38,055 nucleotides of DNA from Lachnospiraceae bacterium (GTDB taxonomy: Bacteria > Bacillota > Clostridia > Lachnospirales > Lachnospiraceae): the NCBI GenBank assembly GCA_016286555.1, contig JAEETA010000024.1, forward strand, positions 1 to 38,055, in the 5' to 3' direction. The notes under the pieces are model-generated. The model searched no databases. It was not told the origin of the DNA and was given only the letters and a program-made list of their open reading frames with translations. The position numbers and the translations under genes were made by a program. Shown piece after piece: positions 17,536-25,303 of the stretch (within the stretch, counting starts at the first letter, position 1; every line of letters starts with the position of its first letter).

Positions 17536-18051
17536 TTATTCTTCGGAAGTGACAGTTTCAACAGCCTGATCCTCTACTGCTTCCATGTTCAGGCCTTCCT
17601 TCTCTTCCTCATCCCGTACCTCCTGCAGGGCTGCGGCTACGGCTGCGGCTGCGGAACGCTTTCCGTTCTTTGCTGCCTTGCGATAGACGGCCTTGCGGCG
17701 GTTCTGATGATCGGGAACCTCCTGATTCATGTTGCAGCTTCCCTGGAAGATGGCGTGCTCATCGATAACGATGGACTCGGTGTTCACATCTCCGATGACT
17801 CTTGCGGTAGCAGTGATCTCCACCTTGCGCTGTGCGGTCACGTTGCCGTTGACCTCACCGCCGATGATGGTGGCTTCCGCATTGATGTTACCGTTGATAA
17901 CGGCTGCGGTACCCAGAACCAGAGTCCCCTCCACCGTTACATCACCGTTGACACATCCGTCGATCCTTGCGGAATCCGGTGCGGAAAATGCACCGTCCAG
18001 TACTGCGCCCTTACCCACCAGGGTCGTGATCCTAATCTCCTGTTTCTTCAT
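17536..18051 (-). CDS. Bactofilin (polymer-forming cytoskeletal protein)
   Basis: 171 residues. Residues ~8-115 are a bactofilin right-handed beta-helix with repeating short turns (DGCVNGDVTVEGTLVLGT, INGNINAEATIIGGEVNG, IGDVNTESIVIDEHAIFQG). A basic/Ala-rich stretch and an acidic tail follow. Bactofilins self-assemble without nucleotides into filaments that scaffold cell-wall enzymes and shape or septum factors. The gene lies 13 bases downstream of the degenerate M23 membrane protein gene, in one transcription unit, matching the recurring bactofilin-M23 pairing seen in other bacteria. Confidence 0.92.
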   Translation of the reverse strand: MKKQEIRITTLVGKGAVLDGAFSAPDSARIDGCVNGDVTVEGTLVLGTAAVINGNINAEATIIGGEVNGNVTAQRKVEITATARVIGDVNTESIVIDEHAIFQGSCNMNQEVPDHQNRRKAVYRKAAKNGKRSAAAAVAAALQEVRDEEEKEGLNMEAVEDQAVETVTSEE

Positions 18052-18064
18052 TTTTCCCCCTCAT

Positions 18065-18802
18065 TTATCCGTTGATGGACAGCTCGTCCATAGGACTGAT
18101 GTACTCACCCTCAAACATCATCTCGTAAACCAGCTTGTGCTTTTTATCGGAAATGACGAACAGGGTATTACCCCGGGATACGCTCTCCCCTTCCTTTACC
18201 ATCACATCATCCGCATTGCGGTAGATGGTGACATAGCCGTTCCCGTGATCGATGGTGACACAGTGACCGTAGGTCTCGTCATCGGCGATCTCCGTTACGA
18301 CACCGGCGGCGGATGCAACCACTGCGGTGCCTGCGGAAGCGGTAAATACCAGGATCGGATGATCTTCGTTAAACTCTTCCATAGAAGCGGAACTGGTCAG
18401 CGGGAACTCCGTGGGCATGGACTGAGAATTGATGGTCTCGGTCAGCTCTGCCTCGGCTGCGACCTTGGTGTTGACGGTGTCACTGAGGATCTGAACCTCT
18501 CCTTCCAGAGAGTTGATGGTGGACTGAAGCGAAAGCTTCTCCTCCTCCATCTCGGAGATCAGGTTGCCCTGCTCTGCGATCATATCCTGATAAACCGCCT
18601 CACGATCCTTCTGAAGATAGAACAATCCCACCATCACACCCAGAAAAACACTGAGTGTCAGAATCAGAACCCAGGAAACGACAGGATGGAAAGTCATAGG
18701 CTTTACTTCTGCGTCTACTGCACTGGTGGTCATGATCATCAGATGCTGCGTCTTGCGACGATGCTTCTTCTGCTTTAAGGAAATCTGATAAGAAGTTTCC
18801 AT
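18065..18802 (-). CDS. Membrane protein with coiled coil and degenerate M23 (LytM) domain
   Basis: 245 residues: a basic cytoplasmic N-terminus (1-40), one transmembrane helix (~41-63), a coiled coil (~70-125), then an extracellular LytM/M23-like fold (~150-240). The fold is recognisable from AGVVTEIADDETYGHCVTIDHGNGYVTIY split over the usual strands and VKEGESVSRGNTL. Zinc ligands are missing: no HxxxD before the first strand, Tyr-Arg-Asn where Tyr-x-His is expected (194-196) and LVYEM where LHFE/HxH is expected (224-228). It is therefore probably a non-catalytic regulator or scaffold, as in SpoIIQ or EnvC. ATG 18802 has GGGAGG six bases upstream. Operon with bactofilin. Confidence 0.85.
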   Translation of the reverse strand: METSYQISLKQKKHRRKTQHLMIMTTSAVDAEVKPMTFHPVVSWVLILTLSVFLGVMVGLFYLQKDREAVYQDMIAEQGNLISEMEEEKLSLQSTINSLEGEVQILSDTVNTKVAAEAELTETINSQSMPTEFPLTSSASMEEFNEDHPILVFTASAGTAVVASAAGVVTEIADDETYGHCVTIDHGNGYVTIYRNADDVMVKEGESVSRGNTLFVISDKKHKLVYEMMFEGEYISPMDELSING

Positions 18803-21555: not shown

Positions 21556-23388
21556 TTAATTGCTAAAGCCAGCACGCTTTCGGAGACGGGGATCCAGGAT
21601 CTTTTTCCGGATTCTCAGATTGGAGGGGGTCACCTCCAGGAGCTCGTCGGTGTCGATAAAGTCCAGAGCCTGCTCCAGGGAAAGGATTCTGGGGGGCACC
21701 AGGCGCAGTGCTTCGTCTGCGCTGGAGGATCTGGTATTGGTCAGCTGCTTCTTCTTGCAGACATTGATCTCGATGTCCTCGGACTTGCCGGTCTGACCCA
21801 CCACCATGCCGGCGTAAACCTTCTCGCCGGGGCCGATGAAGAGGGTACCGCGCTCCTGGGCATTGAAGAGGCCGTAGGTGATGGCTTCGCCGGGCTCGAA
21901 AGCGATGAGGCTTCCCTGCTTCCGGTACTGGATATCTCCCTTGTAGGGCGCATAGCCGTCAAATACGGTGTTCAGGATACCGTTGCCTTTGGTGTCCGTC
22001 ATAAACTCGCCGCGGTAACCGATGAGGCCTCTGGCGGGAATGGAAAACTCCAGTCTGGTGTAGGTGCCGCCGGAGATGCTGCCCATATTCCGCAGCTCGC
22101 CTTTGCGAGCGCCCAGCTTCTCGATGACTGCTCCCGCGTAATCGTTGGGAACATCGATGTAAGCCAGCTCCATGGGCTCCGTCTTTTTGCCGTTCTCGTC
22201 CTCACGGTACAGAACCTCTGCCTTGGATACGGCAAATTCATAGCCTTCTCTGCGCATGGTCTCGATGAGGACGGACAGATGCAGTTCGCCTCTGCCGGAG
22301 ACCTTAAAGCGGTCCATATCCTCCGTCTCCTCCACCCGGAGGGACACATCCGTATTCAGCTCACGGAAAAGTCTCTCGCGAATGTGACGGCTGGTGACGA
22401 ATTTACCTTCCTGGCCTGCCAGAGGGCTGTCATTTACCATGAAGTCCATGGCGATGGTAGGCTCGGAGATCTTCTGGAAAGGAATGGGAGTCACCGCATC
22501 GGGGCTGCAGAGGGTGTCTCCAATGTGCAGGTCGGAAATACCGCTGATGGCAACGATGGAACCGATGCCTGCTTCCCGGACCTCCACTTTGTTCAGGCCG
22601 TCAAACTCATAGAGCTTGCTGACCTTGGTCTTGATCAGTTTATCGGGCTCGTGGTGGTTGCAGATCACCACTTCCTGGTTCACGCTGATGGTGCCGTTGT
22701 CTACCTTACCTACGCCGATCCGGCCCACATACTCGTTGTAATCGATGGTGGAGATCAGCACCTGGGTACCTGCCTCGGGATCTCCCTCGGGAGCGGGGAT
22801 GTAGTCCAGGATGGTCTCAAACAGCGGCTCCATATCGGTGCCGGGGGTGCTTGCGTCCAGGCTGGCAACACCGGTCTTGGCAGAGGCATAGACAAAGGGA
22901 CAGTCCAGCTGGGAATCGTCCGCATCCAGCTCCAGGAACAGTTCCAACACCTCGTCCACCACTTCATCGGGTCTCGCCTCGGGGCGGTCGATCTTGTTGA
23001 TGCATACGATGACGGGAAGCTTCAGTTCCAGTGCTTTGCGCAGCACGAACTTGGTCTGGGGCATAGCACCCTCAAATGCGTCCACCACCAGGATGACGCC
23101 GTTGACCATCTTCAGCACACGCTCCACCTCGCCGCCGAAATCTGCGTGGCCCGGGGTGTCGATGATATTGATCTTGGTGTTCTTGTAGGTGACTGCAGTG
23201 TTCTTGGACAGGATGGTGATGCCGCGCTCACGCTCCAGATCGTTGGAGTCCATGACACGCTCCGCCACCTCCTGGTTCTCACGGAACACGCCGGACTGCT
23301 TTAACAGTTCGTCCACCAGGGTGGTCTTCCCATGATCGACATGGGCGATGATTGCTACGTTTCTTACATCTTCTCTCTTCTGAATCAT
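21556..23388 (-). CDS. typA: Translational GTPase TypA/BipA
   Basis: 610-residue ribosome-associated GTPase related to EF-G, important for ribosome assembly and stress or cold growth. The G1 motif is AHVDHGKTT (15-23), with [13 protein letters not shown] (G3) and [15 protein letters not shown] (G4). Domains II, III and V and the BipA-specific C-terminal domain ([20 protein letters not shown] region) follow. The ATG at 23388 has GGAGG eight bases upstream; a TTG 15 bases earlier is less likely. It is preceded by an array of perfect hairpins carrying small overlapping ORFs, unlike any other gene here. Confidence 0.95.
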
Positions 23389-23516
23389 TTTTTCATCCTC
23401 CAAGCCTGCAAATTCAATTTGCAGGCGCTTGAGGAGAAATCTGCGAATGCAGTTTCTCCGAATAGATCATGCAGTTTTGCCAACCGGCAAAACTGACGTT
23501 TGAAAGAAAAGCGCAT
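23385..23516 (-). other. Possible 43-codon ORF coupled to typA
   Basis: ATG at 23516, TGA at 23385-23387 overlapping the typA ATG (ATGA). The peptide begins MRFSFKRQFCRLAKLH and has three cysteines at most. Most of it is encoded inside the hairpin array, so it may be a by-product of the repeats. It is itself preceded by a six-codon ORF (MFERKR, 23516-23536) whose TGA shares a base with this ATG. Coding status unproven. Confidence 0.25.
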
Positions 23517-23546
23517 CAGCGTTTTCTTTCAAACATTTCTCCTCAA
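23404..23546 (-). repeat. Cluster of four perfect or near-perfect hairpins before typA
   Basis: In about 143 bases: GCCTGCAAATT-C-AATTTGCAGGC (23404-23426); GGAGAAA/TTTCTCC with inner CTGC/GCAG (23433-23459); CAGTTTTGCC-AACC-GGCAAAACTG (23472-23495); and a 13-base stem GTTTGAAAGAAAA/TTTTCTTTCAAAC (23498-23534). A 12-base inverted repeat TTGAGGAGAAAT / ATTTCTCCTCAA (23429-23440 and 23535-23546) embraces the last three. It resembles a compound palindromic repeat element or a multi-hairpin leader RNA. No second copy was seen in the window. Confidence 0.85.
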
Positions 23547-23563
23547 AAACTACTCAGACGCAT

Positions 23564-23569
23564 ATTCTA
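23564..23569 (-). promoter_or_regulatory. Possible extended -10 upstream of the typA hairpin array
   Basis: Minus strand TGATAGAAT straddling the end of recN; no -35 hexamer is evident. If real, typA is transcribed from here with a leader of about 170 bases; otherwise it continues the recN operon. Confidence 0.35.
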
Positions 23570-25246
23570 TCAGATCTTGGATTTTTGCGCCTGACTCTTC
23601 ATCTCGCGTGCATTCTCCAGTGCAGCCTCGGTGATCGTATCCGATCCCAGGAGTCTGGCCACTTCCGCAAGACTTTCCTGCTCATCTGCAGGATAAACCC
23701 GAGTGCTGGTGGAACCGCCCTCAGAGGTTTTTTCAATGATATAATGGGAATCCGCCATTGCGGCGATCTGGGGCAGATGGGTGATGCAGATCACCTGATG
23801 TGCCCGGGATACCTTCCCCAGCTGGGTGCTGACCTTCCATGCGGTCTTACCGCTGATGCCGGCGTCGATCTCGTCAAAGATCAGAGCATCGCATCCGTCA
23901 CGGCCCGCCAGCACCGTCTTTACCGCCAGCATGATGCGGGACAGTTCGCCGCCGCTGGCCACATTCTGCAGAGGCTTCCGGGGCTCGCCGGGATTGACGG
24001 AAATGCGGAATTCCACATCATCCGCTCCCTTGCTTCCCATGGGGGCCTCTCCCACATGGACCTCAAAATCCACCGCGTCGAAATTCAGCTCTGCCAGTGC
24101 TACACTCAGTTCCTTTTCCAGTGCCTTCGCTTTTGCTTTCCGCACTGCGGTGAGCTTTGCGCAGAGGCTAGTCAGTTCCGCCCTTGCCGCATTCAGCTTT
24201 CCGCGGAGCTTCTCCAGATAGGCATCGTAGTCCTCGTACCGGGCCAGGGATTCCCTGCATTTTGCCCCGTACGCCAGCACTTCTTCAATGGTCCTGCCGT
24301 ATTTGTCCTTCAGACGGTTCACCAGATCCAGCCGGTCCTGTACCGTCCGGAAGGTGTCCTCATCGAACTCCGCATCCGAAAGATAGGAAGAAATGCTGCG
24401 GTTAAAATCCGCCAGCAGGTCTTCGGCCTGCAGAAGGAGCTCCTCCTGCTCTTTCAGGCTGTCATCATAGGCGGTGACTACCCGAAGGCTTCGCAGCGCT
24501 CTGGAAATCTGTTCCGCCGCGGAATCCTCTCCCGTGCCGGACGCCCGGTAACATTCCCCCAGGCCCTCCAGGATCTGACGGGAATTCACCATTCTGCGGT
24601 AGTCCCGCTCCAGCTCCTCGTCCTCACCGGGAACGAGATGCGCTTCCTCGATCTCTTTACATTCAAACTCTGCCAGGCTCTGTTCCCTGCTTAAAGAGTC
24701 CCCGTCCTTTTCTTCGGCTTCCAGCTCTGCTTCCAGATCCGCCGCCAGACGATAAGCACTGCGTACCTGCTCCGGCAGATTCCCCTCTTCCTCAGCTCCG
24801 TACTGGTCCAGGATCTCCAGATGGGAACTTTTGTGCAGGAGGGTCTCACTCTCGTGCTGCCCGTGGATGTTGATGAGTTCGGAGGCCAGGGCCTTCAGCT
24901 GTTTGGTGGTAACACTCTCTCCGTTGATCCTGCAGGAACTCCTGCCGGCGGAAAGCTTGCGGCTGATGATGACCAGACCGTCCTCGGGAGGATCCAGGTC
25001 CATCTCAGCCATGGCCTTTGACAGCGCCTCACTCTCGGAACGGAACACCAGCTCTACCTGAGCCGTATCCGCACCGTGGCGCAACATCCCGGAATCGAAG
25101 CGGTCTCCCAGGGCCAGTCCCACAGAGCCCATAAGTAAGCTCTTGCCGGCGCCGGTTTCGCCCGTCAGGATGTTGAGGCCGGGTCCGAATCGGGCCTCGG
25201 CGTCCTCCATCAGTGCCAGGTTTTTGACATGAATACTTTCTAACAT
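23570..25246 (-). CDS. recN: DNA repair protein RecN
   Basis: 558-residue SMC-like ATPase for double-strand break repair. Walker A is GETGAGKS (29-36). Long coiled-coil arms lie about 160-370. The ABC-type signature lies at ASGGELSRIMLA, Walker B at DALIFDEIDAGISG, and ITHLPQIAAMADSHYIIEK follows. The start at 25246 has AAGGAG seven bases upstream. It follows argR by 57 bases, the usual argR-recN order in Firmicutes. Confidence 0.95.
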   Translation of the reverse strand: MLESIHVKNLALMEDAEARFGPGLNILTGETGAGKSLLMGSVGLALGDRFDSGMLRHGADTAQVELVFRSESEALSKAMAEMDLDPPEDGLVIISRKLSAGRSSCRINGESVTTKQLKALASELINIHGQHESETLLHKSSHLEILDQYGAEEEGNLPEQVRSAYRLAADLEAELEAEEKDGDSLSREQSLAEFECKEIEEAHLVPGEDEELERDYRRMVNSRQILEGLGECYRASGTGEDSAAEQISRALRSLRVVTAYDDSLKEQEELLLQAEDLLADFNRSISSYLSDAEFDEDTFRTVQDRLDLVNRLKDKYGRTIEEVLAYGAKCRESLARYEDYDAYLEKLRGKLNAARAELTSLCAKLTAVRKAKAKALEKELSVALAELNFDAVDFEVHVGEAPMGSKGADDVEFRISVNPGEPRKPLQNVASGGELSRIMLAVKTVLAGRDGCDALIFDEIDAGISGKTAWKVSTQLGKVSRAHQVICITHLPQIAAMADSHYIIEKTSEGGSTSTRVYPADEQESLAEVARLLGSDTITEAALENAREMKSQAQKSKI

Positions 25247-25303
25247 ATGCACACTCCTTGTGCCTTCTCCGAAAGGAGTCTGCCCGGACTCCAAAAGCAG
25301 GGC

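Follow-up and report, generated by a model that had tools for sequence, protein, structure and literature searches.

The hairpin array in the leader of typA is probably a copy of a small non-autonomous mobile element of Lachnospiraceae, which enters ribosome-binding sites and carries its own Shine-Dalgarno sequence (SD). Copies of the array are dispersed, are present in one sister species and absent from the other at most of the genes compared, and lie in one orientation; most full copies have an SD on both sides, their hairpins covary, and in other genera they contain a pseudoknot. The element would be about 105-150 nt long and would enter in one orientation, either between the SD and the start codon of a gene or directly 5' of that SD. 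Since it usually ends in an SD of its own, the interrupted gene would retain a ribosome-binding site.

The hairpin array in the typA leader

The window (the whole stretch of DNA analysed, 38,055 nucleotides) comes from a genome of 2.93 Mb in 83 contigs, referred to here as G000; its sister species is G010. The gene typA (BipA GTPase; 21556-23388, minus strand), recognized from its open reading frame and the Pfam domains GTP_EFTU, BipA_C and EFG_C, is preceded on the same strand by a recN-like gene (23570-25294, from the ORF list, named by eye from its translation), the stop codon of which forms the 5' border of the leader. The minus-strand RNA of the array folds at -78.7 kcal/mol, compared with -51.75 +/- 4.75 kcal/mol for shuffled sequences (z = -5.67, 0 of 200 shuffles as good), and the four packed hairpins described in an earlier note on this sequence are present, all on the minus strand. 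Hairpin A (23498-23534) has a UGAU loop and recurs in identical 37-nt copies at other places; hairpin D (23472-23495) was placed by sequence and fold; hairpin E (23433-23459) is the counterpart of a module termed C, which covaries, and has one unpaired base on each side of its stem; and hairpin F (23404-23426) occupies the place of the pseudoknot strand of most copies from other genera. The number of hairpins was correct in the earlier note, although the stem of A is longer than was given there, with 16 pairs and one bulge, and bulges occur in E as well as in A. The alternative outer fold, formed by an inverted repeat, was also recovered as a long-range pairing of two 19-nt arms (23429-23447 and 23528-23546) that are 84% complementary.

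The array lies between two SD-like sequences on the minus strand: GAGGAG (23539-23544), directly upstream of hairpin A and taken as the older SD, and GGAGG (23397-23401), which closes the array at its 3' end and from which typA would be translated. The bases downstream of GGAGG are similar to the short typA leaders of congeners. Covariance model R2 matches 23424-23534 on this strand (71.1 bits), and model R3 recognizes a copy at 23389-23534 (63.1 bits) that ends immediately before the typA ATG. The earlier note saw nothing like the array elsewhere in the window, and across its 38 kb R2 indeed finds this single place, its second match (25.8 bits, plus strand) being a palindromic echo of hairpin A.

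One reading in the earlier note made the array a translation-sensing leader specific to typA, with translationally coupled mini-ORFs. The overlapping chain of stops and starts that favors this reading does exist in the window copy, where the mini-ORF MFERKR (23516-23536, minus strand, read from the sequence) ends TGATG into a 43-codon ORF (23385-23516, minus strand, from the ORF list), which overlaps the typA ATG at 23386-23388. Neither ORF is conserved in G010, where a TTG frame without the stop replaces the ATG of MFERKR and the second ORF is only 16 codons long, which argues against coupled mini-ORFs. Coupling through mini-ORFs also fares poorly among 27 copies from the window genus and a second genus, g5 (common to Lachnospiraceae bacterium NC2008 and genome G034), just 13 of which have a start codon overlapping the first base of hairpin A. 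Furthermore, the readable typA leaders of 21 other congeners (24-280 nt; contig ends truncate those of G003 and G019, and the set excludes six congeners) contain no module by eye, a typical one consisting of AAAAGAGGATTATGAAAAA followed by ATG, and of the leaders read only that of the sister G010 shares the typA copy. Because the same kind of array stands before many unrelated genes, in this genome and in other Lachnospiraceae, a typA-specific feature is refuted, and we give that explanation practically no credence.

Dispersal within the genus and differences between sister species

In a search of 59 genomes, the array at typA was matched in G000 and G010 only, strong matches in other congeners being restricted to the typA start (query positions 250-321). 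G000 contains ten further matches to the array at nine loci (E<=1e-5), and G010 many dispersed copies in addition to the one at typA. The order of modules is constant: hairpin A is followed by B or D, then by C or E, sometimes by F, and as a rule by an SD and a start codon. A pattern consisting of the 3' end of C plus SD (<=1 mismatch) occurs 11 times in G000, 25 times in G010 and 0-9 times in 29 other genomes of the genus, compared with 3, 3 and 0-7 occurrences of the reversed control, and the pattern of hairpin A (<=3 mismatches) occurs five times in G000, nine times in G010, once each in G014 and G018 and not at all in the other 27 genomes of the genus. In 400 kb of G000, R2 gave three matches with E<=0.0011, a fourth with E of 0.025 at a copy already known, and a fragment with E of 0.9. 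It gave none at E<=1 in 200 kb of the congener G011, where R3 gave one weak match (13.7 bits, E 0.029). Generic leader hairpins were considered and set aside, the non-genic hairpins in 400 kb of G000 being mostly terminator-like or unrelated by eye.

The genes downstream of the copies have no common theme. A Pfam scan of 20 downstream proteins returned unrelated families: TypA/BipA, ornithine carbamoyltransferase, SAICAR synthetase, phosphorylase, NeuB, glutamine synthetase, YhbY, TsaE, a PALP enzyme and PheS, together with MGS-like, sigma-70, ParB, L-PSP, MntP, endonuclease/exonuclease/phosphatase, heavy-metal domain, germination protease, FGGY kinase and M24 peptidase proteins. The remaining downstream genes were named by eye from their translations.

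Orthologues in the sister species were located for 21 of 22 query genes, the exception being a glnQ-like gene without one in G010. We aligned 20 pairs of filled and sister sites, and at 16 of them every module is missing from one species. The array is found in G000 only at six (thrH-like, L072, rpiR-like, glnA, a glycosyltransferase and rsmF-like) and in G010 only at ten (argF, tsaE, purC, neuB, pheS, cysK, yifB-like, bactofilin-like, glgP and a membrane gene). At rpiR the sister leader carries a different sequence instead of the array; the ECF site pair is ambiguous in the alignment; and at yhbY and an ABC gene hairpin A is present in both species, with the later modules missing from one. Arrays occur in both sisters at three loci, namely typA, the Fur-ABC junction and C69/C72. 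As 16 of the 20 loci lack any module on one side, the element appears, on this comparison of sequences, to have spread recently. Copies within a genome have a mean similarity of 0.86 (genome means 0.58-0.97), compared with 0.70 between genomes. Some of the empty sister sites may be losses, for example the symporter site in G000, which retains AATGTTTGAAAG, the 12-base start of hairpin A.

The window itself holds an empty counterpart of one G010 copy, at about 18050-18070 (minus-strand start at 18052): the bactofilin-like gene has a hairpin-A insertion between SD and ATG in G010 (L064), and in the window its SD and ATG are uninterrupted. In two comparisons of sister loci (L069 with L169, and L107 with L163) hairpin A is common to both, the later modules differ, and short direct repeats of the GGACAG type lie at the joints, which suggests that single modules can be gained or lost. 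At about 1970-2262 of L062 in G010 the whole A-D-E-F-SD unit is tandemly duplicated, and the sister retains just the last hairpin and SD. A different sequence, GAATTGCGAGAGTTTCGAAGAAACGGAGCAATT, is repeated with its neighbors in the leaders of glgP in both species (L060 and L168, upstream of the array) and of rpiR in G010 (L156), and is possibly another dispersed element.

Placement at ribosome-binding sites and conserved RNA structure

A catalogue of 68 loci was compiled, with 14 from G000, 28 from G010, 20 from G034 and six from NC2008. It omits, out of 21 sites, L241 (T-box-like by eye) and L242, L249, L252, L253, L255, L256 and L257 (coding or chance by eye), and further omits L299, three reverse-strand echoes and one row without a locus; for L240 and L254 the scripted starts are internal, and a nearer ATG was read by eye. 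At 67 of the 68 loci the element lies in sense orientation before a start codon, the exception, L294, being a weak match; at L066, L056 and L068 the downstream start has a low or zero SD score by script. L241 was left aside as a T-box-like leader (about 540-640) whose end resembles the 3' end of the element (ATTTTCTTCAAGGAGG), a resemblance taken as coincidence.

Since the catalogue was partly found with a pattern that contains the SD, two independent sets weigh more. The matches to hairpin A in G000 and G010 are in sense orientation before a start in 14 of 14 cases. For 67 model matches from other genera, a script found a downstream sense start in 61 and an antisense start in none; two of the 61 are doubtful, as L354 runs into a second array and the start at L364 (64 aa) is 78 nt away, leaving 59 firm. 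The six without a start are L326, L333, L355 and L363, where another array follows, L376, and the false match L341.

SD sequences are found on both sides of most full copies. An SD core lies directly 5' of hairpin A in 21 of the 27 copies from the window genus and g5 (a set that includes L282 and L284, read on the wrong strand), and in windows further upstream, used as control, its mean frequency is 0.19 (maximum 0.33). The corresponding figures in other genera are 54 of 64 copies (a set that omits L316, L317 and L341), with a control mean of 0.14 (maximum 0.27); for tandem copies among these 54, the 5' SD probably closes the array that precedes them. The 5' SD-like sequence is established as the older one by a sister site at some loci only, among them glgP, the membrane gene, the bactofilin-like gene, L072 and pheS, where a second SD ends the array. 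At tsaE, GGAGG is present in the filled site and the sister site lacks an SD. Copies consisting of C or E only (thrH-like, tsaE, the glycosyltransferase, yifB-like and ECF) lie directly upstream of an SD. The shortest remnants (L309, L310, L239, L243 and L248) retain the 3' end, an end that the searches favor, and this is as expected if the 3' end is selected. Bases 4-6 of hairpin A form a stop codon in 22 of 27 copies from the window genus and g5 and in 59 of 64 from other genera; a start codon at bases 1-3 precedes it in 41 of the 64 and in none of the 27. The stop codon would end initiation from the older SD, and the folds would leave the new SD open.

The sister alignments show SD-like sequence on both sides of filled sites and no clear identical target duplication. 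By eye, no terminal inverted repeats are seen, the 5' end being GTTTGAAAG or GTGTGAAAA and the 3' end GGAGG. No mobilizer was found in G000 and G010 in a search for a single family, the REP-type transposase PF01797 (Y1_Tnp). Copies truncated at the 5' end are compatible with target-primed reverse transcription, which is only a lead as to the mover because copies consisting of hairpin A alone and internal deletions occur too.

REP sequences and BIMEs, with their RAYT transposases, are small dispersed palindromes inside transcripts, and the element resembles them in this respect; we know of no SD-carrying end among them. The earlier note offered a dispersed compound REP-like element, tolerated where it landed, as its second reading. 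Dispersal was borne out, and 'tolerated' undersells a landing in one orientation and abutting the start codon, with an SD usually supplied, covarying stems and, in other genera, a pseudoknot. That the array is nonetheless an ordinary REP/BIME or MITE-type repeat without any tie to translation, its position reflecting only the survival of insertions in spacers, would fit its small palindromic modules and tandem copies, as well as its decay and internal deletions. We regard this as very unlikely given the single orientation with placement at start codons, the SD on both sides, the lack of visible terminal inverted repeats, and the lack of any PF01797 match in G000 and G010, both about 90% complete (the family is present in nine of 31 genomes of the genus).

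Compensatory changes are present in the stems of element copies. In an alignment of 22 C modules of the same length class, from which the longer E and G034 forms were excluded, 92.1% of cells are paired, compared with 77.7% in shuffles and 30-56% in slid alignments, and eight of 11 pairs have changed on both sides. For A-B-C (15 sequences) the values are 97.3%, 90.4% and 33-52%, with both-side changes in 17 of 37 pairs compared with 4.5 in shuffles. For A-D-C-pseudoknot, an alignment of 30 sequences chosen by hand from 56 distinct ones, they are 93.0%, 84.7% and 33-47%, with both-side changes in 24 of 51 pairs compared with 12.9. The pseudoknot, found in most copies from other genera, pairs the D loop CCGGAGCG with CGCTCCGG before AATGGAGG, beside the SD. 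Taken alone it is 93.3% paired (shuffles 86.7%, slid 20-40%) and has 18 double-changed cells compared with 5.2, and on its weaker measures, the number of pairs with double changes (four) and of pair types, its values were reached by 25 and 60 of 500 shuffles. Conservation extends to the unpaired loop of hairpin A and to a few unpaired bases of the linkers.

Riboswitches and T-box leaders are folded 5' leaders adjoining the SD, and the element is likewise a folded leader beside the SD, with a pseudoknot in copies from other genera. The pseudoknot covarying next to the SD, the loop of A and other unpaired bases that are conserved, and the start-stop in 41 of 64 copies from other genera could all be explained by a regulatory leader RNA of many genes, riboswitch-like or bound by a protein, which was spread by duplication for its usefulness, with hairpins and pseudoknot that gate the SD and a 5' start-stop that senses initiation. 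Unlike such leaders, the element has no coherent gene set, as the 20 downstream proteins illustrate, and shows recent gain or loss between sisters, the same gene having the array in one and not in the other. A CUCC-GGAG hairpin that would hide the SD has no covariation support (85.8% paired, compared with 86.6% in shuffles), and in the window copy hairpin A does not begin with a start-stop and we could find no pseudoknot partner, hairpin F standing in its place. On balance we consider a regulatory leader of this kind unlikely, and prefer the mobile element with its own SD. An extension of the latter, to which we assign a similarly low probability, is a mobile riboregulator aimed at ribosome-binding sites: a folded nucleic acid would enter the gap between SD and start, turn native initiation into a start-stop (GTG-TGA), and hand initiation to its own SD through the D-loop pseudoknot, which would place dozens of unrelated genes under one control at the level of translation.

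Spread across the Lachnospiraceae and comparison with known systems

Among 392 genomes of the order, only G000 and G034 were matched when the array was used as a DNA query. An exact hairpin A was found in NC2008, as part of a full A-B-C array before a cysK-like gene. R2 extends the family considerably, with matches in 35 of 397 family genomes and 31 of 334 genera (E<=0.01); it scored eight candidates per genome, and copy numbers are therefore lower bounds. At least one locus was inspected in each of 30 of the 35 positive genomes (all except G425, G500, G522, G643 and G687); by eye, the array is recognizable in 29, and the match in G502 (L341) is false and terminator-like. Model R3, consisting of 30 copies from other genera and excluding the window genus (g1) and g5, recovers 23 of 24 sources from those two genera, including the window copy, and misses only L064, which has hairpin A alone. 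On the strength of these models, we read the copies from the window genus, g5 and the other genera as one family.

Carriage by phages was considered and rejected: two patterns matched no viral contig, and of three records labelled as phage that did match, the one inspected, MT836788.1, looks like a bacterial contig because by eye its ORFs resemble iscR, iscS and enolase. In this record, labelled Bacteriophage sp. (L383), the element precedes the enolase-like ORF. The plasmids searched contained no match to the element. Pattern matches in Bacteroides (two records), Chitinophagales and Nitratireductor were discarded, as they show no paired array by eye. Among open-licence papers on repeats or structured RNAs, whether at ribosome-binding sites or in Lachnospiraceae, we found nothing on the element.

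The Rfam families TD-1 (RF03155) and TD-2 (RF03162), the latter occurring in Treponema denticola, were compared with the element. TD-2 matches the window at 23439-23538, over hairpins E, D and A, with 34 bits against a cut-off of 48.7 and on the strand opposite to the typA transcript; its matches at L322 and L336 are likewise below threshold and antisense, and it exceeds the cut-off in none of 59 genomes. Membership in TD-2 was rejected on score and strand. A cmscan of the window stretch and 14 loci from other genera gave no Rfam family above its cut-off at the element. The passages of PMC2864571 that were consulted name neither TD-1 nor TD-2.

The closest working analogue is the pneumococcal BOX element, to judge from passages of PMC3049150. 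BOX elements are small, dispersed and modular (boxA-boxB-boxC), their transcripts are strongly folded, they are often near genes, and they are thought to affect co-transcribed genes (PMC3049150). The element is also dispersed, modular, under about 200 bp and strongly folded. BOX elements have terminal inverted repeats and target duplications, and are also found inside genes and pseudogenes (PMC3049150), whereas the element has no visible terminal inverted repeats or clear duplications, is fixed in orientation to the downstream start, and carries an SD. The TAACTGA repeats of Beggiatoaceae are dispersed, mostly forward, and directly upstream of the start codons of genes without a common function; they possibly spread horizontally, by no known mechanism, and are short heptamers mostly without an SD (PMC4679880). 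They share with the element dispersal, mostly in one orientation, before the starts of unrelated genes and a possible horizontal spread by no known mechanism, whereas the element forms several covarying hairpins as RNA and usually has an SD at its end. In the passages compared, neither BOX nor TAACTGA is an oriented, covarying element that carries an SD, and we file the element as a new variant of small interspersed repeat, outside any named family.

Small interspersed repeats are usually regarded as parasites of spacer DNA, and a family that lives inside ribosome-binding sites and replaces what it interrupts would represent a different way of doing little harm. The element occurs in many genera of Lachnospiraceae, and no Rfam 15 family exceeds its threshold at the loci scanned. 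With a pseudoknot lying beside the SD, an effect on translation is directly testable, and the leaders of typA, argF, purC, glnA and other housekeeping genes are to be read differently in the species that carry the element.
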